Below, in pieces: positions 1,868-15,986 of a stretch of 47,876 nt of DNA (position 1 is the first letter of the stretch; each line of letters starts with the position of its first letter). Source of the DNA: Candidatus Roizmanbacteria bacterium RIFOXYC1_FULL_41_16 (GTDB lineage Bacteria; Patescibacteriota; Microgenomatia; UBA1406). Location of the stretch: NCBI GenBank assembly GCA_001788295.1, contig MGBO01000007.1, positions 78,263 to 126,138 of the forward strand. Direction: 5' to 3'. A model generated the notes under the pieces. It saw only the letters and a list, made by a program, of their open reading frames with translations. It made no database searches and was not told where the DNA came from. The translations under genes and the position numbers were made by a program.

Positions 1868-2278
1868 TTACTTTTTTCCAATTCCCTGAGAAAATCTGAG
1901 TAAATATCCACTTGGATCCATAACAAGAATTTCTCGACATCCGTGTAAGGTTTTTTTTACTTTATAATAACTGTCTTTTATCCCTTTTTTCAATGGATAG
2001 TTATTTTGTGCAAGAGTATCAATTATTTTTTGAACATTATCTGTCTCTATTTGAAAGTTAATCCCCCTTCCATAAGGATATTCGGGTTTACCATTATGCC
2101 ATTCTTCATCATTGTCGTCTTGTTGGATCATTAATTGACTACCTTGATAAGATAGAAAGGCAAATAATGGATCTTTTCTTTCATACTCGAGTTTAAAACC
2201 TGGTATATTTGTATAAAAATACAGACTCTTATGAAAGTCGATAACGTAAAGCTCCGGAAGAATATTATTAAATCTCAT
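1868..2278 (-). CDS. VOC (glyoxalase/bleomycin resistance/dioxygenase) superfamily protein
   Basis: LPELYVIDFHKSLYFYTNIPGFKLEYER...INFQIETDNVQKIID...VMDPSGYLLRFSQ pattern. Confidence 0.85.
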   Translation of the reverse strand: MRFNNILPELYVIDFHKSLYFYTNIPGFKLEYERKDPLFAFLSYQGSQLMIQQDDNDEEWHNGKPEYPYGRGINFQIETDNVQKIIDTLAQNNYPLKKGIKDSYYKVKKTLHGCREILVMDPSGYLLRFSQGIGKK

Positions 2279-4123: not shown

Positions 4124-4586
4124 TGACCGGTACCCTGCATACTAGATATAGTTTTCTAAGAAAATATTAGCAGTTTATCTCTAAAACTATGACTTGTATC
4201 TCAAAAGAGATTAAAGATGGGGTTTTAATTAAAGTAAAAACTGGTAAGAAGGTAATAACTCTTTCCAAACAATATTGGATCAGTGAGAAAATTATACATA
4301 ACTGGCTAAAATTAGGGACGGAAGACAGGATATCAATGAGTAAGAAAGCTTCTCCTTGGGAAAATGCTTATCAAGAGAGTTTTTACTACAACTTTAGAAC
4401 TGACTTAGGATTGGAATTTGACCGCTTTATTGGAGTTGGAGAACTTGTCGAAGCTATTTCCCAAACAATTCATTACTACAACCAACAAAGAATCCACACT
4501 TCTCTCAAGATGTCACCTGCTAAATACAGACTTTATCAGGAGCAAAAAGTCTTAGAAAAAGTTGTCGAAAAAATGGGTACTTGACA
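4124..4586 (+). mobile_element. IS3-family-like internal deletion derivative with imperfect terminal inverted repeats
   Basis: TGACCGGTACCC at 4124-4135 and GGGTACTTGACA at 4575-4586 (reverse complement TGTCAAGTACCC; 9/12 match) bracket the transposase-derived ORF. Confidence 0.5.
4189..4584 (+). pseudogene. Truncated/fused IS3 transposase: OrfA-like HTH N-terminus joined to C-terminal part of the OrfB integrase core
   Basis: N-term KEIKDGVLIKVKTGKKVITLSKQYWISEKIIHNWLK; C-term ENAYQESFYYNFRTDLG...HYYNQQRIHTSLKMSPAKYR; the middle of the integrase core is missing. Confidence 0.75.
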
Positions 4587-4672: not shown

Positions 4673-5332
4673 TTAAGATATAGTTGGTGCCAATGTTTTG
4701 ATACTGTTGTCGGGATAAAATAATTTAGCCCTTTCCCCTATAACAATTAAATTATCCTTACATCGTATAACTCCTCCTGTTTCTGGAATAGCTAAAATAG
4801 GTGATTCTATAGTTGGACTGAGATCCATTATGAGTTGATTTTCTTCTGATAATCCTTTGTAATGGCAAAAAACAGAGAGTCCGTCAAGGAAGTTTAGTCC
4901 ATCATAAGACAATCTTGCGTTATTTCTAACTTCGGGTGCCGTACGTAAATCTTTTCCTAATATAATTGCACCAGCGCTACCTCCATATATTAGCCCACCC
5001 TCTCTAATATATCTGCTGATAAGCGACGTAAAACCTGTTTCTAAGAAATGATCCATTAATCTATTCGTATTTCCTCCTCCAATATATATACCTCCAATAG
5101 CTTGTAAATCTTGCATGGTAATCTTATTTAAATCTGTCCACATATTAACATTTGATCTTCCATTTACTACTCTATTAAACCATGTAAAACATTCACTATA
5201 AGGACGTGAAGTCATAGCGATTGGAATATAAGCAAGATTTCCTTTTAAATATTTAAAAAATTCATCATCAAAAGATGCGGATAAAGTTTCGTTACCTCCA
5301 CCACCAAGAAATATTTTAGTTTGTCTTTCCAT
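4673..5332 (-). CDS. Peptidase E-like (S51) / class I glutamine amidotransferase-like protein
   Basis: FLGGGGNE start, IYIGGGNTNRLMD, nucleophile-elbow-like GGSAGAIILG, CHYKG His. Confidence 0.75.
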   Translation of the reverse strand: MERQTKIFLGGGGNETLSASFDDEFFKYLKGNLAYIPIAMTSRPYSECFTWFNRVVNGRSNVNMWTDLNKITMQDLQAIGGIYIGGGNTNRLMDHFLETGFTSLISRYIREGGLIYGGSAGAIILGKDLRTAPEVRNNARLSYDGLNFLDGLSVFCHYKGLSEENQLIMDLSPTIESPILAIPETGGVIRCKDNLIVIGERAKLFYPDNSIKTLAPTIS

Positions 5333-6572
5333 GTTGATTTTTCATAAATTGAATCAAATCATCATCTAATATACCGTGCATTTGAGCATAAATAAGAGTT
5401 GTTTCAATAGGTTGTTTAATATTCAATGCATCAGGTAAATTAAACTGTTTTTTTAAAGCTAAATTAAGCCTTTTATTACGTTCTATACTTATAACTTGGG
5501 TAGTTGTTATTAAATCTAATGGAAATGATTGAAAATGACTCCACCATTCATAGTAATAATTCACCAATTCATCTTTGAAGGGTTGAGAAAAACTAAATGC
5601 AGTGTCAGCCAAATTCTTATATTTCGATCCTACATCCCTATGACCACTTTCTACTCCTGAAGCAGATAATAGCACCAGGGTACGATATGCATCTAACTGT
5701 TCAATCTGATCATTACTGACTTCAATTAATGGGTTAAAAACTCCAAAATATAACCTATTTTTTCTCGCCGCCCATGTTAGTCGTTCTAACCCAAAAGTAA
5801 TATCACTCATGGTCGCTGATGTTTGTGATTTAATTAAGGGAATGTTGATAAAAAAATTACTAACTCCTAGCTCCAAACCTTTATAAAATACCTTAATTAC
5901 ATCAGTATTAAATTCACCATTTCCCCAATTTGGACGATTTTCAATATGACGTAACGTTAAATCACCTGCAAATAAACCCACTTCTGATAATATTTCTATC
6001 CAATGTTCAAAATGAGACATATGATTTTCTAATGTAGCGTTAAATTGCTCCGTAGCTAATAGAGTAAATGATGTTGAAAATCCTTCTTTTTTTCCAACGA
6101 TTTTACGACCTTGCAATCTAATAACAGGTTGAATTGTATAAATAGGTAAACCTTGCAAAGGAGCCTCGATTTCTTCATGGATAAATGGATCAAATAATTG
6201 ACCAGCAGTACCGGTAAAGACTGTCGTACTATTGTCTCTTACTATGGGTAAAGGTTGACAATATTGAAAATCTGGATCTACAACTTCGTGAAATTTGTCT
6301 GCAATATCAAAAATAGATGGTGGATTTTTTCTTTTTTCTCCAATAAACTCATATCCATTACATTTTTCATCACCACAAATTGCTTTTTGACCCTTAGTTA
6401 AAAATAAAGTATGACAGCACTCACAGCTTGCCGAATGCCATCCTTTACTCGACAAATACTCCGAAACCACTGAATGAACTTGTGCTACACGCTGTTCACC
6501 TATGCCATTGATTTTTCTTTCATTGAAACCAGAACTATCAAAAGAAATTTTACCCTGCAATGATTCACTCAT
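5316..6572 (-). CDS. Alanyl-tRNA synthetase-like class II catalytic-core protein (archaeal type, lacks tRNA-binding/editing/C-Ala regions)
   Basis: N-terminal Cys-rich segment CECC...CGDEKCNGYEFIGE, QPVIRLQG...STSFTLLATEQFNA, WGNGEFNTDVIKVFYKGLELG, FGLERLTWA resemble the archaeal AlaRS N-terminal half; only 418 aa. Confidence 0.75.
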   Translation of the reverse strand: MSESLQGKISFDSSGFNERKINGIGEQRVAQVHSVVSEYLSSKGWHSASCECCHTLFLTKGQKAICGDEKCNGYEFIGEKRKNPPSIFDIADKFHEVVDPDFQYCQPLPIVRDNSTTVFTGTAGQLFDPFIHEEIEAPLQGLPIYTIQPVIRLQGRKIVGKKEGFSTSFTLLATEQFNATLENHMSHFEHWIEILSEVGLFAGDLTLRHIENRPNWGNGEFNTDVIKVFYKGLELGVSNFFINIPLIKSQTSATMSDITFGLERLTWAARKNRLYFGVFNPLIEVSNDQIEQLDAYRTLVLLSASGVESGHRDVGSKYKNLADTAFSFSQPFKDELVNYYYEWWSHFQSFPLDLITTTQVISIERNKRLNLALKKQFNLPDALNIKQPIETTLIYAQMHGILDDDLIQFMKNQHGKTN

Positions 6573-6575
6573 ATA

Positions 6576-7805
6576 TTAATAAAGCCTGATTTTGTTTTGT
6601 AACAGTTCTTTTGTAATGTCAGGGATTGAATCTAATTCATGTTTCACAAGTTTTATTAGTTGTTTTAGATCTAGATTATTCGAGTCTAAACAAACAATTG
6701 TTTTCCAAGGACGGATTAAATCTGAACCACTTTGGCTTACTAGAAAAACCATTACGGGTTGACCTGTTTTATTAAATAAAGCATTAGCAATTTTATAAGC
6801 TGCAATATTGTATAGTTTTCCAACGTGGTATACTGGATTTTTACCACAAGCTCCTTCCATACTCATAGGTTGAAGCATAGGAATTAAACCATGTATCCGA
6901 TTTCCTCTTCCAACCAATCCTTCATCTCCGCTCTCAATAGATGAACCCGTTGCTGTCAAATATAATTCACCGGTATCATATTGATCTCTTGTATTAATAT
7001 TTAGATTAATTTCGCTTTTAGGAAAATTGTTCCTAATAATTTTAAACACTTCTTCACGAGAATTATCAATATTTTGCTTGTATTCTTGTAAAGAATATAC
7101 ATAATTGGCTATTTGGGGAAGACAGAAAGTAATGTCGATTTTTTTCAATATTCTTGATGCCATTATTTTAATATCTGATCCACACCATGGATGGTGCTTC
7201 TGATATTTTTTAGAATTTAACAAGCCCTCTATACTTAATACGGTTTTTTCTAATGTCGTTAATGGAGCGTAACTGCAACCTAAAGAAGTATCGTTAGAAA
7301 ATAATGATTTTAGTTCGGGAAGATCGTCAAGATCTCTTGGTTCAAACCAGAATTTCCTTTTTCCTTTCTCTGACTCTTTCTCCTCTGTTTTCCCAGGGCT
7401 ACTGGCGTTACTTAAGTTGAAATGTATTTTAAGATCTGTTTTTTTGACTAAATCAAAAAAATGTTCTTTAAAAAAAGCATAAACAGTATCGGTTATCAAA
7501 TCCATGTAGGGAATACTAGTATCCCCAAAAGAAGTAGATACGCGACCATTTATAAGAACTCGAATGGGGCTAGTAAGATATCCTTTTCCAAAACTAACAA
7601 ATGCTTTTCCTCCCAATAAGCCTACTTTGTCAAAGTTGTGATGAAGAATTGCTCCATGATGAGATAGGGTATAATTTGAATATGATCGAGATAGAGATTC
7701 GGCTAAAGCGTCGGCGAGAGTATCTGGGTGCCCAATTCCTTTTCTTTCAATTAATTCAAAATCTCTTTGAATTACTGGATTAGGAAAAAAATTAATAGAA
7801 CTCAT
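6576..7805 (-). CDS. Archaeal-type S-adenosylmethionine synthetase (MAT)
   Basis: IERKGIGHPDTLADALAESLSR, GAILHHNFDKVGLLGGKA, NDTSLGCSYAPLTTLE, YLTATGSSIESGDEGLVGRGNRIHGLI, QPMSMEGACGKNPVYHVGKLYN. Confidence 0.9.
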   Translation of the reverse strand: MSSINFFPNPVIQRDFELIERKGIGHPDTLADALAESLSRSYSNYTLSHHGAILHHNFDKVGLLGGKAFVSFGKGYLTSPIRVLINGRVSTSFGDTSIPYMDLITDTVYAFFKEHFFDLVKKTDLKIHFNLSNASSPGKTEEKESEKGKRKFWFEPRDLDDLPELKSLFSNDTSLGCSYAPLTTLEKTVLSIEGLLNSKKYQKHHPWCGSDIKIMASRILKKIDITFCLPQIANYVYSLQEYKQNIDNSREEVFKIIRNNFPKSEINLNINTRDQYDTGELYLTATGSSIESGDEGLVGRGNRIHGLIPMLQPMSMEGACGKNPVYHVGKLYNIAAYKIANALFNKTGQPVMVFLVSQSGSDLIRPWKTIVCLDSNNLDLKQLIKLVKHELDSIPDITKELLQNKIRLY

Positions 7806-7920
7806 ATATTTATTAATAAATATAAGTCTAAATTATATCATCTTGAGGCGACAAATTCAACGCTGACAGCAGATTAATCTCAAAAATAAGTTTATGTCGT
7901 TGGCCAAGAGTAATAACTAG

Positions 7921-8212: not shown

Positions 8213-11200
8213 ATGAGCAAATTTTTAGGGGGGAAGCTAGATAATCAGGAAATAAGACAAAGAATATATACGTATGAGTTTTCTTCTGGATACAAGCCTT
8301 CGAAAGAACTAGTTAATAGCGCAATTGAACAATTCTGGTTTCATGACTATTACAATAGCATTATTTCGGACGAGTGGTTTCTAGCAATATTCCCTAAATT
8401 TCTTGACAAACACAAGCCGGGTAAATTCAATCGCTATGATTTCTATGCCTTTCTGATTAATCAAATTACTGAAAACAAAACAGAAAGGCTAGGATTACAA
8501 AGAATCGCTTTGGAGTTTGAAAAAGCACAGGTCGATAGAATAAAAACAGATGCCTACGAACATTTTCTGGAAGATATAGAAGCTCCAGATGGCTTATTTA
8601 GCATTTCATGGTTTGAAAATAAAAGATTAGCAAAGATTGTTAAAGAGGATAATAAAAGTTTATTTGCTTGGGAACATCACACCCTCACGGAGTTTTTAGT
8701 GGCCGAATTTTTGATTCAGCAAAAGAACTCATTTCAAGAATTTCAAAAGCTAGCGATACTAAGCCAAGAAGGGATTGTTGCTTTCAAACCTTCCTGGTCC
8801 GGGGTATTACGCTTTCTTATGGAGTCGAAGTACGCGCAAGAAATAACCGCTTGGCTTATGCAGTTTTTAGATGAGTATTCAGATAATATTGACGATAATT
8901 TAGCGGAATTATTGGTATTCGAAGGGCTTAATACTAGCAAATCTTTCTATTTTAGAATTTTCAACTTGGTTTACAACACCTATTTTGAGCGACAGGTCTG
9001 GCTTCCTATATGGACAAGGCACCGACTCTCACGATTTGTTGATACAGAAATTTACAAAAGACTAAAGACTGATATTAAGAAATGGCCCCAGCAAACTGAG
9101 ACTTATGTCAAAAGAAGTAACGCGATTATGGTTATTGAGGGTTTGCTTGAAAATAAGAACTCGTTGTTAACCACAAAAGAAAAAGAGTACTGGAAAAAAA
9201 CACTCGTTAATTTCTGTAACAAACCTGGAGATGGAGGAAATGGTGTATTACAAAGAACTTGTCTATCTGCACTGGCCTACTTTAAAGATGGGAGTATTAT
9301 TCCTAAAGTTGCCAAAAGCTGCTTTGAGAATACTCAAGACTCTCTGGTAAGAGATGAATTCATTCAGCTCTGTTATAACTCTGCGCCCAACTCAAGATAC
9401 GCAATTGACTATTTAGTTGAGGGTATAAAAAAGGGTGCAACAATTTATGCACGGCACGGTTTATATGAAATAACCACAAAATCAGCGATTAAGTATTTCC
9501 TTAAAAAGATAATCAAAGATAATGGATTTTGGACTAAGTTTATTGACCATGAGAGCATTTTTGATAAAGAGGATGGAGACAAGCGACTTCTTGCAAATAT
9601 AACGAGAAATGTAGATAGAGAAGTAATCAAACTTCTTAAAAAGAATATCTTTGGCATATTTGCTATTCCGAACTTTTATCAGGAAAACAAATCTAGTTTT
9701 ATTAGGAAGATTGTTCAGATAATTAATAAACACGATTCCGGCTTTCTGTCTGAAATATTGAAATTAATAAATAAGCAGGATAACGACGATAAAATAGCAC
9801 ACCTGTTTTTCGATTTTGAGGAAATCCTAGCAATACTTCTTACTCCACAAAACGTAGCAGAGTATTTCAAGCAATTAGAGGAGATTGAAGAAAGACATAA
9901 AGAAAGGGTTATATATACAGCTCGACGGATTAATAGCAAAATAGGTAGGGCTGTGTACCAGAAAGCTGTGCAATTAAAACTAATTGAGCCGCTAAACGAA
10001 CAAACAGCTATTACTAACTGGGAGAAACAACAAGAGCAGCAAAAGCAAAATAAATTAGACGAATTCTTAAGATTGCTTGAACCAGCACCGGGAAAATATA
10101 TTCCCAGCGTTTTTGAATATTACACTCAAAATCAAAAAGAGTTTGATGAATTTTTTAAAACAAAAAAGGGACAGAGAGCAGAAAAACGACTTCTCAAATT
10201 AGTCCTGGATGAGGGTCTCAAAAAAATTGACCCACGTAAATTTACGGTTACCATTCCAAACAAAAAAGCAGGCAATAGCCAGTTCACTTGGAGTACATCA
10301 GCCTCTTATTTTGGAGATATGCTTTCTGTGCTAAAGATACTTGCCCCGGAGCAAATAAAAAAATATAGGCAAAAAATTATTGATTTTATTCCCTATGCTT
10401 TTTCTGACGATATGGGTCAAATTTTAGAGTTGGTTTCAGAAATATCCGATAAAGATTTGGAATTTGTAAACAAAGTTATGGGTAACCCAAAAGATGATAG
10501 GCGATACCTAATCCCTAGTTCATATATTTATATTGTTGAGCAGCTATTAAAAAGGAGGTACAGACTGTTACAAAGTAAAGAAATAATTAAATCTTTTATT
10601 GGTGATCAAAATATTGGAGACTATAACCAGCGTTCTGCACTCAAAACTTTTGGATTGTTTTTGAATAAAAAAAACACAGAGTCCAAAAAATTCCTGCAGG
10701 CAATTTTTGCCAAAAGGGACAAAAGCAATCACAACAAGCAATTGGGTAATATAGCCAACAGCTTATTAATTAGTGTTTATGAAGACGAAGAGGCAATAAA
10801 CTGGAGGTTCAAAAAGATTAAAGAACCTTTAGCTTTTGAAGGAAGAAAGCTTGATGGGGAATTTCATGAAGTTGGGCCAATTGAGAATGAATTAGATACA
10901 TTAGCTTTTGCTGGACCACTAATTAACTTGAAAAATGAAACGTACCTACCAAAGTTTCTGAAGCTACTTGATCACTCTTTTAAACTACAGGAAGAAAAAC
11001 AAGGTAAAAATTACAGTGGTTATATTAATTATATCTGGAGAATAGTAACAAAGAATTTAGAGAATCTTCAAGAAACCGGATCATTTAGGCCGTTAATGTA
11101 TTTCAATGCCTGGCTACTAATGCAGAAAAACCATCCAAACTTAAATTGGCTTAAATTGCACATAGAAAACAGTAGAAGACGGTACATTAATGATGTAAAC

Positions 11201-11662
11201 CCAAAATTCCAATTAAATAGAGATCTTGAGAATAGTATTGAACTACTTTGTAGGTCAAATGATCCTGCTCAAAAAATAGCATGTGCTTTATTCAAATCTC
11301 AATTAGTTGAGCAAAAGCTGAAAGAATTACTTAAAGGTTTAGCATTATATACATCATTAATTACCAGACGGCACAAGATCAAAAAAAAAGTTGATTATGA
11401 CGATTTTATACGTTTTACACTTGGAGATCTATTGATGTTACTAAATAAATATGAAGATAGTAATGAAGACAGTGATATAAAAAAATTAAGAAGTGAAATT
11501 AGTAATTTAAATGGTATACGTAAAAAGTTCACGCATCATTTATACGAGCAGACTAAAACTACTCAAGATTTGTTTAACGAGGCAAAAACTAGCATCAATT
11601 CTTCTTATAGAGCACTACAATTAATGCAGAGCGTTTGGATAAAAGTGTTAGCAATGAACTAA
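8213..11662 (+). CDS. Large (1149 aa) NACHT/STAND-like post-NTPase and helical-repeat region; NTPase module apparently missing
   Basis: FNRYDFYAFLINQI and FAWEHHTLTEFLVAEFLIQQ resemble the segment after NACHT domains; long alpha-helical remainder; no P-loop or Walker B found. Confidence 0.5.
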   Translation: MSKFLGGKLDNQEIRQRIYTYEFSSGYKPSKELVNSAIEQFWFHDYYNSIISDEWFLAIFPKFLDKHKPGKFNRYDFYAFLINQITENKTERLGLQRIALEFEKAQVDRIKTDAYEHFLEDIEAPDGLFSISWFENKRLAKIVKEDNKSLFAWEHHTLTEFLVAEFLIQQKNSFQEFQKLAILSQEGIVAFKPSWSGVLRFLMESKYAQEITAWLMQFLDEYSDNIDDNLAELLVFEGLNTSKSFYFRIFNLVYNTYFERQVWLPIWTRHRLSRFVDTEIYKRLKTDIKKWPQQTETYVKRSNAIMVIEGLLENKNSLLTTKEKEYWKKTLVNFCNKPGDGGNGVLQRTCLSALAYFKDGSIIPKVAKSCFENTQDSLVRDEFIQLCYNSAPNSRYAIDYLVEGIKKGATIYARHGLYEITTKSAIKYFLKKIIKDNGFWTKFIDHESIFDKEDGDKRLLANITRNVDREVIKLLKKNIFGIFAIPNFYQENKSSFIRKIVQIINKHDSGFLSEILKLINKQDNDDKIAHLFFDFEEILAILLTPQNVAEYFKQLEEIEERHKERVIYTARRINSKIGRAVYQKAVQLKLIEPLNEQTAITNWEKQQEQQKQNKLDEFLRLLEPAPGKYIPSVFEYYTQNQKEFDEFFKTKKGQRAEKRLLKLVLDEGLKKIDPRKFTVTIPNKKAGNSQFTWSTSASYFGDMLSVLKILAPEQIKKYRQKIIDFIPYAFSDDMGQILELVSEISDKDLEFVNKVMGNPKDDRRYLIPSSYIYIVEQLLKRRYRLLQSKEIIKSFIGDQNIGDYNQRSALKTFGLFLNKKNTESKKFLQAIFAKRDKSNHNKQLGNIANSLLISVYEDEEAINWRFKKIKEPLAFEGRKLDGEFHEVGPIENELDTLAFAGPLINLKNETYLPKFLKLLDHSFKLQEEKQGKNYSGYINYIWRIVTKNLENLQETGSFRPLMYFNAWLLMQKNHPNLNWLKLHIENSRRRYINDVNPKFQLNRDLENSIELLCRSNDPAQKIACALFKSQLVEQKLKELLKGLALYTSLITRRHKIKKKVDYDDFIRFTLGDLLMLLNKYEDSNEDSDIKKLRSEISNLNGIRKKFTHHLYEQTKTTQDLFNEAKTSINSSYRALQLMQSVWIKVLAMN

Positions 11663-11663
11663 G

Positions 11664-11737
11664 TGCTCTCAACGGGATTCGAACCCGTGTCTGCGCCGTG
11701 AGAGGGCGCTGTCCTAGGCCACTAGACTATGAGAGCA
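11664..11737 (-). tRNA. tRNA-Glu (anticodon CTC)
   Basis: Reverse complement tgctctcatagtctagtggcctaggacagcgccctctcacggcgcagacacgggttcgaatcccgttgagagca folds as a cloverleaf; anticodon loop CCCTCTCAC. Confidence 0.93.
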
Positions 11738-11970
11738 AATAAACGTTCAATTTTGGCTCTTTTCTTCCAAGACTTAATCTCTTTCTCTCTTTTTCTTGCT
11801 TCTTTGAGAGTGTTATATTCCTCTGAATATTTTAGCAACCAAGGGCTGTAGATTCTAGTATATTTACTTAAACCAGCGTTGTGTTCGCTAACTCGGCGTT
11901 TCAGGTTGTTAGTACAGCCAATGTAATAACTTGAGTTCTTAAGTGAAATTAAAACGTATGTGTAATACAT
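11722..11970 (-). CDS. GIY-YIG nuclease family protein
   Basis: YYTYVLISLKNSSYYIGCTNNLKRRVSEHNAG...ARKREKEIKSWKKRAKIERL. Confidence 0.9.
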   Translation of the reverse strand: MYYTYVLISLKNSSYYIGCTNNLKRRVSEHNAGLSKYTRIYSPWLLKYSEEYNTLKEARKREKEIKSWKKRAKIERLFALIV

Positions 11971-11987
11971 ATGTATTTAAGCAAAGC

Positions 11988-12041
11988 CACTAGATGCCGT
12001 AGGCATGCACGATCCGCCAATAGGCGGAATCGGCACTAGTG
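11988..12041. repeat. Imperfect palindromic element with nested hairpins
   Basis: Outer arms CACTAG(a)TGCCG / CGGCACTAGTG; inner TGCC-gta-GGCA and CCGCC-aata-GGCGG. Confidence 0.55.
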
Positions 12042-12049
12042 AGAGCAGA

Positions 12050-12078
12050 TTGACAAATACTCTCTTGTCAAGTAGATT
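12050..12078 (+). promoter_or_regulatory. Putative sigma70-type promoter of greA
   Basis: TTGACA - 17 nt - TAGATT, ending 7 nt before the ATG. Confidence 0.55.
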
Positions 12079-12085
12079 ATAGCAA

Positions 12086-12547
12086 ATGAACAACCGTCCT
12101 AAGGCAATTTTAACCCCTGATGGTAAGGGTAAATTGGAAGCCGAATTGGCTGATTTGCGACGGCGCCGTCCGCAAATTGTTGAAGAAGTGCAACGGGCCC
12201 GAGCCTTGGGTGATTTGCGTGAAAACAGCGCTTATCAGGCCAATAAAGATAAGATGCGCCAAACCGATCGCCGGATTACTCATCTAGAATTGTTATTGCG
12301 CAACAGTCTGGTAGTTGAAAAAACCGATACCAAGGCAGTACAATTAGGGAGTCAGATTAAAACCGAAATTAATGGCCAAACTGTTGTTTTTGCTTTGGTT
12401 GGCGAGAGCGAAGCTGATCCCAAAAACCACCGGATTTCGTTGCATTCGCCGCTCGGTAAGGCTTTTTTAAACAGGCAAAAAAACGAGTTGGTAAAAGTAA
12501 TCACTCCTGGAGGAGAAAGCATTTATAAAATTTTAGAGATTGAATAA
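12086..12547 (+). CDS. greA: Transcription elongation factor GreA
   Basis: LTPDGKGKLEAELADL...RRPQIVEEVQRARALGDLRENSAYQANKD. Confidence 0.95.
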   Translation: MNNRPKAILTPDGKGKLEAELADLRRRRPQIVEEVQRARALGDLRENSAYQANKDKMRQTDRRITHLELLLRNSLVVEKTDTKAVQLGSQIKTEINGQTVVFALVGESEADPKNHRISLHSPLGKAFLNRQKNELVKVITPGGESIYKILEIE

Positions 12548-12550
12548 AAA

Positions 12551-14089
12551 ATGATTAAAGCCGATGATCTTCTGGGTCAGCGTCAAAGACGTTTAGATAA
12601 CTTAAAAGCCCTAGAAAAACTAGGTATAGAAATTTATCCTGCCAAAGCTAAAAAACAAGTTGCCAACCAAAATTTAATTACTGATTTTGCCAAGTGGAAA
12701 GAAAAAACGGTTGTCCAGTCCGGTCGCCTTACTTCCTGGCGCGATCACGGCAAAATGGTTTTTGCCGATCTGATGGATTATTCGGCCAAAATTCAATTAT
12801 GGTTAAAAAAAGACGGTCTTAAAGCCGATTTAACTCAAGGTTTTTTAGGATGGAGAGAGCTTAAGTTATTAGATGTGGGTGATTTTATTGAGGTTACCTC
12901 AACAGTAACCAAAACCAGCAGCGGGCAAGTGTCTTTGCTGGTTGACAGAGTGCGTTTGCTGGCCAAAAGCCTGCGGCCAATTCCCTGGCAATTATCAGAC
13001 AAAGAGCAGTTGCTAAGGCGGCGGTATCTGGATTTTAATATCAATCCAGAAAAAAAAGCCCTTTTTGAGCGCAAAGCCAAGTTCTGGGAAGCTCAGCGCC
13101 GGTTTTTGGCAGATCACGGCTTTGTAGAAATTGAAACTCCGGTTTTGGAGCATGTCACCGGCGGCGCCGATGCCCGGCCGTTTACCACTTTTCACAATGA
13201 TCTGGGCGAGTCCCTTTATCTGCGCATTTCCACTGAATTATTTCAAAAACGGTTGATTGCCTCAGGTTTTGAAAAGATCTATACTTTTGGCCCTAATTTT
13301 CGCAACGAAGGCATCAGTGAAGAGCATTTACAGGAATATTATCAGGTGGAATGGTATTGGGCCTATGCTTCTTATCGGGAAAATATGATTCTGGTCCGCG
13401 ATCTGTTTCGCTATATTGCCAAAGAGGTTTATGGTAAAACCAAATTTGAAAGTCGAGGTCATTCATTTGATTTAAGTGATGATTGGTCGGAGATTGATTA
13501 TGTCAAAGCGATCAAAGAAAAGTTCAAAATTGATATTTTCAAAAGTACAGAGGCAGAGATTATGGCTGTTCTAAAAGACCAAAAGGTAATTTTATCAGGC
13601 AAGGTGAATCGTAACCGGATGATTGATAATCTGTGGAAATTAATCCGCAAAACCGTTTCCGGCCCGGCTTTTCTGATCAATGAACCGGTCTTTATGTCGC
13701 CTCTGGCTAAGGCTAAAATTAATGATCCCTTGCTGACGGAGCGTTTTCATGTCATTATTGCCGGCTCCGAGCTTGGCAACGGTTATTCGGAAATCAACGA
13801 TCCGCAGCAGCAACTGGCGCGTTTTCTAGAGCAGCAACAGTTACGGGAAAAAGGTGACGACGAAGCGCAAATGTTGGATTTGGATTATGTCGAAATGCTG
13901 GAATACGGTATGCCGCCGGTTTCCGGTTACGGCCAAAGCGAGCGGATCTTCTGGACTTTGGAAAACGTGAGCGCCCGTGAAGGCACGCTTTTTCCGCTCA
14001 TGGCTTATTCTCTGGAGGAAAATACCAGCAAAATCTATGGTCAAAAAGTAACCAAATATACCAAAAATAATGAACAAAAGACCGATTAA
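12551..14089 (+). CDS. lysS: Lysyl-tRNA synthetase, class II
   Basis: RRRYLDFN, FVEIETPVLEHVTGGADARPFTTFHNDLG, FRNEGISEEHLQEYYQVEWYWAY, GSELGNGYSEINDPQ motifs. Confidence 0.95.
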   Translation: MIKADDLLGQRQRRLDNLKALEKLGIEIYPAKAKKQVANQNLITDFAKWKEKTVVQSGRLTSWRDHGKMVFADLMDYSAKIQLWLKKDGLKADLTQGFLGWRELKLLDVGDFIEVTSTVTKTSSGQVSLLVDRVRLLAKSLRPIPWQLSDKEQLLRRRYLDFNINPEKKALFERKAKFWEAQRRFLADHGFVEIETPVLEHVTGGADARPFTTFHNDLGESLYLRISTELFQKRLIASGFEKIYTFGPNFRNEGISEEHLQEYYQVEWYWAYASYRENMILVRDLFRYIAKEVYGKTKFESRGHSFDLSDDWSEIDYVKAIKEKFKIDIFKSTEAEIMAVLKDQKVILSGKVNRNRMIDNLWKLIRKTVSGPAFLINEPVFMSPLAKAKINDPLLTERFHVIIAGSELGNGYSEINDPQQQLARFLEQQQLREKGDDEAQMLDLDYVEMLEYGMPPVSGYGQSERIFWTLENVSAREGTLFPLMAYSLEENTSKIYGQKVTKYTKNNEQKTD

Positions 14090-14738: not shown

Positions 14739-15349
14739 CAAAATTACTGCTGGCCACAAGTAATCCGGGAAAATTAGCCGAGATGCGTCAGGGACTCACT
14801 GATTTGTTAAAAAAGGGCTGGCAATTGTTGAGTTTAGCCGATCTGGAGATTTCACAATCACCTGAAGAAACCGGCCAGAGTTTTAAGGAAAACGCCGAAC
14901 TCAAAGCCCGCTATTATGCTCAAAAAACCCGATTACCGGTTTTAGCCGATGACGGTGGTTTTGTCATCCCTTATTTAAATGGTGAACCTGGAGTTCGCTC
15001 AGCCCGCTGGTTGGGCAACGATTCTTCCGAAAATAATCTAATTAAACATACTTTAAACAAACTAGAAAACGCCAGAGATAAACAACGTCAGGCCTATCTT
15101 GAATTGGTTGTTTGTTTTTATGATCCGGTCAAAGAAATACTCTTGTTTGAAAACGAAAAGATAGCGGGGATCGTGGCCGGCAAGCCGAGTGCCAAACGTG
15201 TTTTTGGATTTCCTTATCGCGCTTTACTCAAAGTCGAGCCTTTTAATCAATATTACGATGAATTAAGTCCAAAACAGCATTTCCAAGTTAATCATCGTTT
15301 GAGAGCTTTAAAGAAGCTTAGAAATCAGTTAGATCAGTATTATGAATAA
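14735..15349 (+). CDS. rdgB: RdgB/HAM1-type non-canonical purine NTP pyrophosphatase
   Basis: LLATSNPGKLAEM, SFKENAELKARYYA, LADDGGFVIPYLNGEPGVRSARW. Confidence 0.88.
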   Translation: MTKLLLATSNPGKLAEMRQGLTDLLKKGWQLLSLADLEISQSPEETGQSFKENAELKARYYAQKTRLPVLADDGGFVIPYLNGEPGVRSARWLGNDSSENNLIKHTLNKLENARDKQRQAYLELVVCFYDPVKEILLFENEKIAGIVAGKPSAKRVFGFPYRALLKVEPFNQYYDELSPKQHFQVNHRLRALKKLRNQLDQYYE

Positions 15350-15986
15350 TTTAATTAATTACGGCCAGCATTTCTTAGTTGATAAAAAAGTGATTCGGGA
15401 TTTTTTGCAAAAATGTGATTTGCAGTCCCATGAGTCGGTTTTGGAAATCGGACCGGGCCAAGGCGTGCTTACTGGCGAGTTAGCTGCTAAAGCCAAAAGT
15501 ATTACCGCGGTGGAAATAGATCAAAGGCTAAAACCAAAACTAGATAAGCTAATTAAGCAATTCTCTAATCTTTCTGTAATTTATCAAAATGCTTTAAAGC
15601 TACAAAACTTTGATTACGATTTGGTCTGTGGCGCGCTTTCCTATGCCATTTTTGAGCCCTTGGTAATTAAACTAATTAAAAATATGCAATTTGCTCGGGC
15701 GGTTTTTTTGGTAAGCGATAAAGTGCGGGAGTCGCAAAAAGAAGAAACTGGTTTATTATTTTATTTGTTAAATGCTTTTTTCAAGATTGATTTTAGTCAG
15801 CGTGTGTTACCGGCGGCTTTTACGCCCAAACCACGAACCGCCGGAGTGATAATTAAATTAATTCCGAGCATTCCCAAAGATAAACGCTTTTTGCTTTGGC
15901 GAGAACGGTTTTTAAAAGACAAAACCGTTTGGCAGCAAAATAACGCCAGTCTTTCAGAATTTGACCGGCAAATATTATATACTTGA
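15342..15986 (+). CDS. ksgA: KsgA/RsmA-like rRNA adenine dimethylase homologue with divergent motif IV
   Basis: GQHFLVDKKVI, VLEIGPGQGVLTGEL, VEID; motif IV position reads GALSYAIFEPL. Confidence 0.8.
   Translation: MNNLINYGQHFLVDKKVIRDFLQKCDLQSHESVLEIGPGQGVLTGELAAKAKSITAVEIDQRLKPKLDKLIKQFSNLSVIYQNALKLQNFDYDLVCGALSYAIFEPLVIKLIKNMQFARAVFLVSDKVRESQKEETGLLFYLLNAFFKIDFSQRVLPAAFTPKPRTAGVIIKLIPSIPKDKRFLLWRERFLKDKTVWQQNNASLSEFDRQILYT

Follow-up and report, generated by a model that had tools for sequence, protein, structure and literature searches.

A compact, recurrent Patescibacterial gene cassette with a truncated AlaRS-like protein, possibly for making an aminoacyl-nucleoside

What might an archaeal-type methionine adenosyltransferase (MAT), a protein resembling part of an alanyl-tRNA synthetase (AlaRS) and a peptidase E-like hydrolase do together in one Patescibacterial operon? 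The three are encoded side by side in a 47,876-nucleotide (nt) stretch of Candidatus Roizmanbacteria bacterium RIFOXYC1_FULL_41_16 (contig MGBO01000007.1, positions 78,263 to 126,138; hereafter the window), which belongs to a genome of 0.9 Mb that is 94% complete (G000). All three genes lie on the minus strand, the first being that of the MAT (6576-7805, 409 amino acids (aa); PF01941, E=5e-100), followed by those of the AlaRS-like protein, here AlaRSL (5316-6572, 418 aa; TIGR03683, E=5e-19), and of an S51 peptidase (4673-5332, 219 aa; Peptidase_S51 PF03575, E=6.8e-18). MAT and AlaRSL are separated by 3 nt and the frames of AlaRSL and the peptidase overlap by 17 nt, within an AT-rich block at about 1-12 kb of the window (G+C 0.31-0.36, versus about 0.42 beyond it). 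The original prediction, made from the letters of the window, had described these genes, their coordinates, strand, families and spacing, and the AT-rich block, and our measurements agree with it throughout. On the basis of the comparisons below, we propose that the trio forms the core of a small Patescibacterial cassette that moves horizontally and would most likely make an aminoacyl-nucleoside mimicking an aminoacyl-adenylate, that is, an inhibitor of aminoacyl-tRNA synthetases (aaRSs), a reading in which we place about even confidence. Its basis is the recurrence and coupling of the genes, an accompanying pattern of extra aaRSs, the domain content of the proteins and changes in their active sites.

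The recurrence of the gene set was assessed by searching for AlaRSL across 380 genomes of the phylum and then by scanning the genomes of 84,980 species with a three-member AlaRSL profile. The first search revealed two relatives, in G090 and G096, while weak matches in G156 and G311 proved to be ordinary AlaRS; the second added four loci, L065, L066, L067 and L068 (genomes G403, G402, G401 and G400, respectively), all of them in Patescibacteria, and recovered G096 again (L069). A separate search with the MAT led to G216, in which MAT, peptidase and prolyl-tRNA synthetase (ProRS) genes stand together. The co-occurrence elsewhere on which the original prediction depended was thus found in different families of the phylum, MAT and/or the peptidase adjoining AlaRSL at all seven AlaRSL loci (the window and six others). 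In G096, MAT immediately precedes AlaRSL with the same 3-nt gap as in the window; in G090, the peptidase comes after AlaRSL, their frames overlapping by 13 nt, and an adjacent MAT faces the pair; and L065-L068 carry AlaRSL-peptidase pairs overlapping by 13-19 nt, a range that holds for six of the six loci with both genes. MAT follows the pair in L066 and L068 and is truncated in L067, and L065 ends at a contig edge at this point, making MAT the most constant neighbour (seven of eight loci, the L067 remnant included). At L067, an open reading frame (ORF) on the minus strand (11923-13065) consists of the first part of GMP synthase and the C-terminal third of the cassette MAT, and could reflect a deletion or an assembly chimera.

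Because the flanking genes vary between loci (for example, dnaN/dnaA lies downstream in L068) while the AlaRSLs of L067 and G090 are 79% identical, the gene set appears to move as a unit. AlaRSL gave no matches in viral, phage or plasmid collections, and such an origin was rejected for it on this basis; no MAT was confirmed in viral contigs. The cassettes tend to adjoin tRNA genes, as genomic islands do: tRNA-Glu in the window (11663-11736) and tRNA-Gly near the cassettes of G090, L068, G216 and G096 (sites L006 1832-1905, L068 8203-8456, L031 10809-10883 and L007 18942-19017).

Comparison of the related loci revealed a further component, a full-length aaRS that adjoins the set at seven of eight loci, the window being the exception. 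A seryl-tRNA synthetase (SerRS) belongs to the set in G090 and L065-L068, a fused alpha-beta glycyl-tRNA synthetase (GlyRS) follows AlaRSL in G096, and an archaeal-type ProRS follows the peptidase in G216. A separate housekeeping copy was present in six of the seven genomes, namely a second, different SerRS elsewhere in G090, G400, G401 and G402, a dimeric GlyRS in G096 and a bacterial ProRS in G216. No second SerRS was found in G403 (L065), in which AlaRS is fragmentary as well, and this assembly is therefore probably incomplete. The cassette SerRSs form a group of their own (708-842 bits to one another versus about 236-345 to housekeeping SerRS), retain the class II catalytic motifs and have an insertion adjoining the YxExxS motif, close to the active site. 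As a control, two SerRSs above the family cut-off occurred in 1 of 55 genomes of the class of G090, and that genome was the cassette-bearing G090 itself. The LysRS of the window (12551-14089) was rejected as the missing second aaRS, being the sole LysRS-like copy seen and lying on the opposite strand in a GreA-LysRS pair; the SerRS at 15961 of the window is likewise the only SerRS of the genome, and an AspRS/AsnRS near the MAT of G077 was not supported as a further duplicate. Since the window's copy of the set is without an extra aaRS, this key clue could not be seen in the original prediction. The direction of that prediction, a dedicated small-molecule pathway in which the peptidase serves processing or self-protection, was nevertheless right and is the best reading given the recurrent trio and an AlaRSL that is additional to the housekeeping AlaRS; activation of an amino acid with ATP by AlaRSL, which it had also assumed, is uncertain.

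We then considered what AlaRSL retains of an AlaRS. Its match to TIGR03683 (archaeal AlaRS) spans residues 38-290 and lies far under the model cut-off, no Pfam match was obtained, and the solved archaeal AlaRS structures 2ztg/3wqy were matched at 3e-9; the AlphaFold model is poor (mean predicted local distance difference test score 51), with AlaRS 3wqy as its sole significant Foldseek match (E=1.8e-6). Alignment with 12 housekeeping AlaRSs indicated that AlaRSL, 379-418 aa long across its members, extends over the catalytic core and the tRNA-recognition domain, stops short of the editing domain and has no C-Ala domain; an archaeal-style, zinc-ribbon-like CxxC...CxxxxC segment lies ahead of the core except in G096. 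In E. coli AlaRS numbering, the arginines of motifs 2 and 3 and the equivalents of W170 and D235 are retained; at the N212 equivalent the window has V, the Parcubacterial members have D and G096 has E, and STSF replaces the usual motif-2 loop (HLT.FEM). The Asn that assists in reading G3:U70 is kept in Parcubacterial AlaRSL only. A housekeeping role was rejected, as AlaRSL falls under all cut-offs and each of the eight genomes checked has a full AlaRS at another site, that of the window included (G000:C10:21149-22546). As for activation with ATP, the arginines are present but the usual residues of the motif-2 loop are not, and the nearest functional analogue, AcmF of the ascamycin pathway, is a transferase working from aminoacyl-tRNA; AlaRSL may adenylate an amino acid or may only transfer one.

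The MAT was compared with archaeal enzymes by numbering its positions on TkMAT, for which the ligand-contacting residues have been described (PMC3853416). Cassette MATs share with the archaeal MATs (TkMAT, MjMAT and SsMAT; PF01941) the family, the fold and the catalytic H33, D201 and D283, retained in all of them together with Y271, and the closest solved relative is MjMAT (3e-73). They differ in a 15-20 residue insertion in the gating loop, which in TkMAT contacts adenine and the methionine side chain (PMC3853416), and in the replacement of I350. The insertion carries a WFEPR-like motif (SSPGK..WFEPRDLDDL in the window) and is found in all cassette MATs as well as in MATs of plasmid clusters of Megaera and Streptomyces, the closest relatives of the window's MAT outside Patescibacteria; the housekeeping-like archaeal MATs of our survey have neither the insertion nor the I350 change. 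Two types can be distinguished. The MATs of the window, G096 and G216 carry I350S, that of the window keeping H62, N64 and N161 beside its altered gating loop, while the Parcubacterial MATs carry H62R, N64M, L145E and I350M, at methionine-binding positions of TkMAT (PMC3853416). This division is mirrored in the MAT tree, in which the window's enzyme groups with its nearest relatives, those of G096 (56-57% identity) and G216 (50-51% identity), with support 98/93 for the three, and these with Megaera (100/98), apart from the Parcubacterial clade; judged by this tree, the cassette uses two MAT lineages. We infer from the residue pattern that adenosyl transfer is intact in the cassette MATs and that the substrate end is altered.

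Other archaeal MATs of cluster type were encountered in the course of this survey. Those at L032, L033, L035, L036 and L038 represent a second, different recurrent MAT cluster of Patescibacteria, with varying sets of partners that include an HprK-like kinase, a HAD hydrolase, a CofE-like (F420-0:glutamate) ligase and glycosyltransferases. Those at L025 and L026 (Streptomyces plasmids NBC_01334 and NBC_00015), L030 and L024 (Megaera pPCS148) are accompanied by a TIM-barrel sugar isomerase, Gfo/Idh oxidoreductases, NUDIX, kinase and carbamoyltransferase genes, and look like nucleoside-type clusters.

The S51 peptidase shares with peptidase E and cyanophycinase the S51 fold, the catalytic Ser and His and a GGSAG nucleophile elbow, and S119, H157 and E184 are invariant within the cassette family. 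The profile of the family matches aspartyl dipeptidases and cyanophycinases at 1e-9 to 1e-12 only. Specificity for Asp-dipeptides is doubtful, because the loop after the catalytic His, ahead of the segment that is ETREQRI in peptidase E, is about nine residues shorter than in that enzyme.

The original prediction stated that no described system has this trio, which holds for the trio as such; the combination of a truncated AlaRS-like enzyme, an extra aaRS and a hydrolase is, on the other hand, the logic of the ascamycin cluster (PMC12945691). In ascamycin biosynthesis by Streptomyces sp. 80H647, AcmF, a truncated AlaRS-like protein with aminoacylation and tRNA-recognition domains only, uses Ala-tRNA to alanylate a nucleoside sulfamate, Gly and Ser being accepted as well; the tRNA is charged by AcmD, a second AlaRS of higher resistance, and the alanine is removed by the hydrolase AcmE (PMC12945691). 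AlaRSL has the domain content reported for AcmF, and the cassette would share a second aaRS in most relatives, a hydrolase able to cleave an aminoacyl group and a predicted adenosine-based scaffold. It differs in its scaffold enzyme, which is MAT in place of sulfamate genes (no nucleoside sulfamate biosynthesis genes were seen at the cassette loci), in a second aaRS that is SerRS, GlyRS or ProRS and is absent in the window, in a hydrolase of the S51 and not the alpha/beta type, and in having only three to four genes in a Patescibacterial host. In the albomycin pathway, seryl-adenylate and an amino-nucleoside are condensed by AbmF, and an additional SerRS, AbmK, is reported both to provide the seryl-adenylate and to confer immunity (PMC9032320). 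An aaRS-like enzyme likewise stands together with a second SerRS in the five Parcubacterial loci only and not in the window; MAT and the S51 peptidase are additional in the cassette, and thionucleoside and siderophore genes of albomycin were not seen in cassette flanks up to 10 kb. We do not claim membership in the ascamycin or albomycin families, as the scaffold genes differ and the AcmF signature is only partly present: of the reported changes of activation residues, N to Q and motif-3 D to E (PMC12945691), AlaRSL has a changed N212 equivalent (V, D or E) and an unchanged motif-3 Asp.

Because the parts of the cassette match those of the ascamycin and albomycin systems (an aaRS-like transferase, an extra aaRS, a hydrolase and a nucleoside-building enzyme), we propose an aminoacyl-adenosyl compound directed against the matching aaRS. 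In this scheme, in which the reactions, the compound formed and the enzyme it would hit are all predictions, the modified MAT would build the nucleoside scaffold by adenosylating the sulfur of methionine, or of a derivative of it, with ATP as the adenosyl donor. AlaRSL would then place an aminoacyl group on an amino group of the scaffold, taking it either from aminoacyl-tRNA, as does AcmF, or from an aminoacyl-adenylate, as reported for AbmF. The second aaRS (SerRS, GlyRS or ProRS) could both supply the activated amino acid and act as an insensitive copy of the target, like AcmD and AbmK, and the S51 hydrolase may cleave the amide, either to set the active part free or to protect the producing cell. 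A more specific version can be formulated, in which a re-specialised MAT makes an S-adenosylmethionine (SAM)-like adenosyl sulfonium scaffold that the truncated AlaRS-like enzyme aminoacylates to an aminoacyl-SAM-type nucleoside. Such a self-contained antibiotic-type pathway of three to four genes would yield aaRS inhibitors of a chemically new class, each version (Ser, Gly, Pro or Ala) corresponding to the resistant aaRS encoded next to it. We regard this version as speculative and rather unlikely to hold in full.

Several observations weigh against the proposed inhibitor pathway. The Asp of motif 3 at the D235-equivalent position, changed to Glu in AcmF, is kept in all AlaRSL members, the likeness to AcmF and AbmF is drawn from their published descriptions, and no transporter, sulfamate or other nucleoside-tailoring gene is common to the loci. 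The set varies, with no AlaRSL in the region of G216 and no peptidase in that of G096. Five of the seven AlaRSL loci (G090 and L065-L068, all Parcubacterial) represent one closely related lineage, leaving only about four independent lineages (Parcubacterial, window, G096 and G216). In the window's genome no second aaRS was found beside the trio or among the Ser/Pro/Thr/Gly/His-type and Asp/Asn/Lys-type enzymes; it may have been lost, lie in the unassembled part or not be needed. Loss is possible because a transposase remnant adjoins the operon on that side: a C-terminal fragment of an IS3-type transposase (rve_3; 4189-4584, plus strand) converges on the end of the peptidase gene and may mark a further cassette gene that was lost. 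Finally, bacterial MetK (PF02773) was not found in the window's genome, so that the MAT is the only SAM synthetase found there, which is one half of a condition that the original prediction had itself named as adverse; the MAT may thus also be the SAM source of this genome, which weakens the case for a special role without removing it.

Among other explanations, one keeps the biosynthetic role and dispenses with toxicity: the second aaRS would only deliver aminoacyl-tRNA or an adenylate for building an aminoacylated metabolite that is not toxic, for instance a signal, a surface modification or a SAM-like cofactor in modified form; inhibition of an aaRS would play no part, and the peptidase would recycle the product. 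An extra SerRS acts as a pure supplier in valanimycin biosynthesis (PMC9032320), AlaRSL retains its tRNA-recognition domain, and G096 and G216 have glycosyltransferase genes close to the set, all of which would suit such a metabolite. The divergence of the extra aaRSs from their housekeeping counterparts (an alpha-beta beside a dimeric GlyRS, an archaeal-type beside a bacterial ProRS) is, however, needless for a supplier and typical of insensitive targets, and we consider this explanation rather unlikely.

Ordinary metabolism is a less probable account. Here the MAT would simply provide SAM to a genome lacking bacterial MetK, and AlaRSL and the peptidase would be accessory genes picked up for some unconnected or scavenging function. 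PF02773 MetK was not found in G000, G090, G096, G216, G401 or G402, and the window encodes a KsgA-type methyltransferase (15342-15986) that needs SAM. However, bacterial MetK is absent from 90 of 143 near-complete relatives (it is present in the other 53), and G400 and G403 hold both the cassette MAT and bacterial MetK. Moreover, the Parcubacterial MAT has substitutions at positions that bind the carboxylate and the side chain of methionine, and the trio is coupled and recurrent, so that we judge this account improbable. We are equally reserved about a resistance or defence cassette against aminoacyl-nucleotide antibiotics of others or phage functions, in which the peptidase would destroy the compound, the second aaRS would replace the target and AlaRSL would be a decoy or sensor. 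The peptidase and second aaRS by themselves would look like such a pair, immunity of the microcin C type employs hydrolases (PMC7916415), and tRNA genes are frequent neighbours of the cassettes; yet PADLOC defence models gave no meaningful match for the trio or the cassette SerRS, and MAT, the most constant neighbour, has no obvious role in pure resistance. A chance neighbourhood with no functional link, for which the AT-rich accessory block and the transposase remnant might be cited, is largely refuted by recurrence in at least four lineages with overlapping frames and changed flanks, and can practically be dismissed.

The surroundings of the operon were examined as well. A possible extended -10 promoter (TTGAAT-17-TGnTATAAT; 7832-7860, minus strand) lies 27 nt upstream of the MAT start codon as a consensus match only (10/12); promoter-like sites in the region are no more numerous than expected by chance, and this is the one nearest upstream of MAT. 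No structured RNA was found in the operon with Rfam. On the plus strand, an ORF of 1149 aa (8213-11662) found no match in Pfam or PADLOC; it begins with a region like that behind the NTPase of NACHT-type proteins, succeeded by repeats, and it may be a truncated STAND-type defence protein. A glyoxalase/bleomycin-resistance-fold protein is encoded within the AT-rich block (1868-2278, minus strand), and a GIY-YIG nuclease ORF (11722-11970, minus strand), possibly part of a mobile element, overlaps one end of the tRNA-Glu gene by 15 nt. At a distance of about 6 kb from the trio, immediately upstream of the window, lies a gene for a MobA-like nucleotidyltransferase followed by a CofE-like ligase gene (L010 9843-11813).

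The genomes of Patescibacteria are small, the majority of these bacteria appear to live on other cells and, to our knowledge, few small-molecule pathways have been described for them. If the proposed pathway is correct, a four-gene cassette making an aaRS inhibitor together with its own immunity would rank with the smallest pathways of this kind and could plausibly serve an epibiont as a weapon or a means of control, and the MAT would have taken on a new role, as a builder of scaffolds instead of a source of methyl donor. The small size of the cassette and its ready-made target (SerRS, GlyRS or ProRS) make direct testing in vitro possible, and the extra-aaRS pattern provides a handle for finding more examples in uncultured bacteria.

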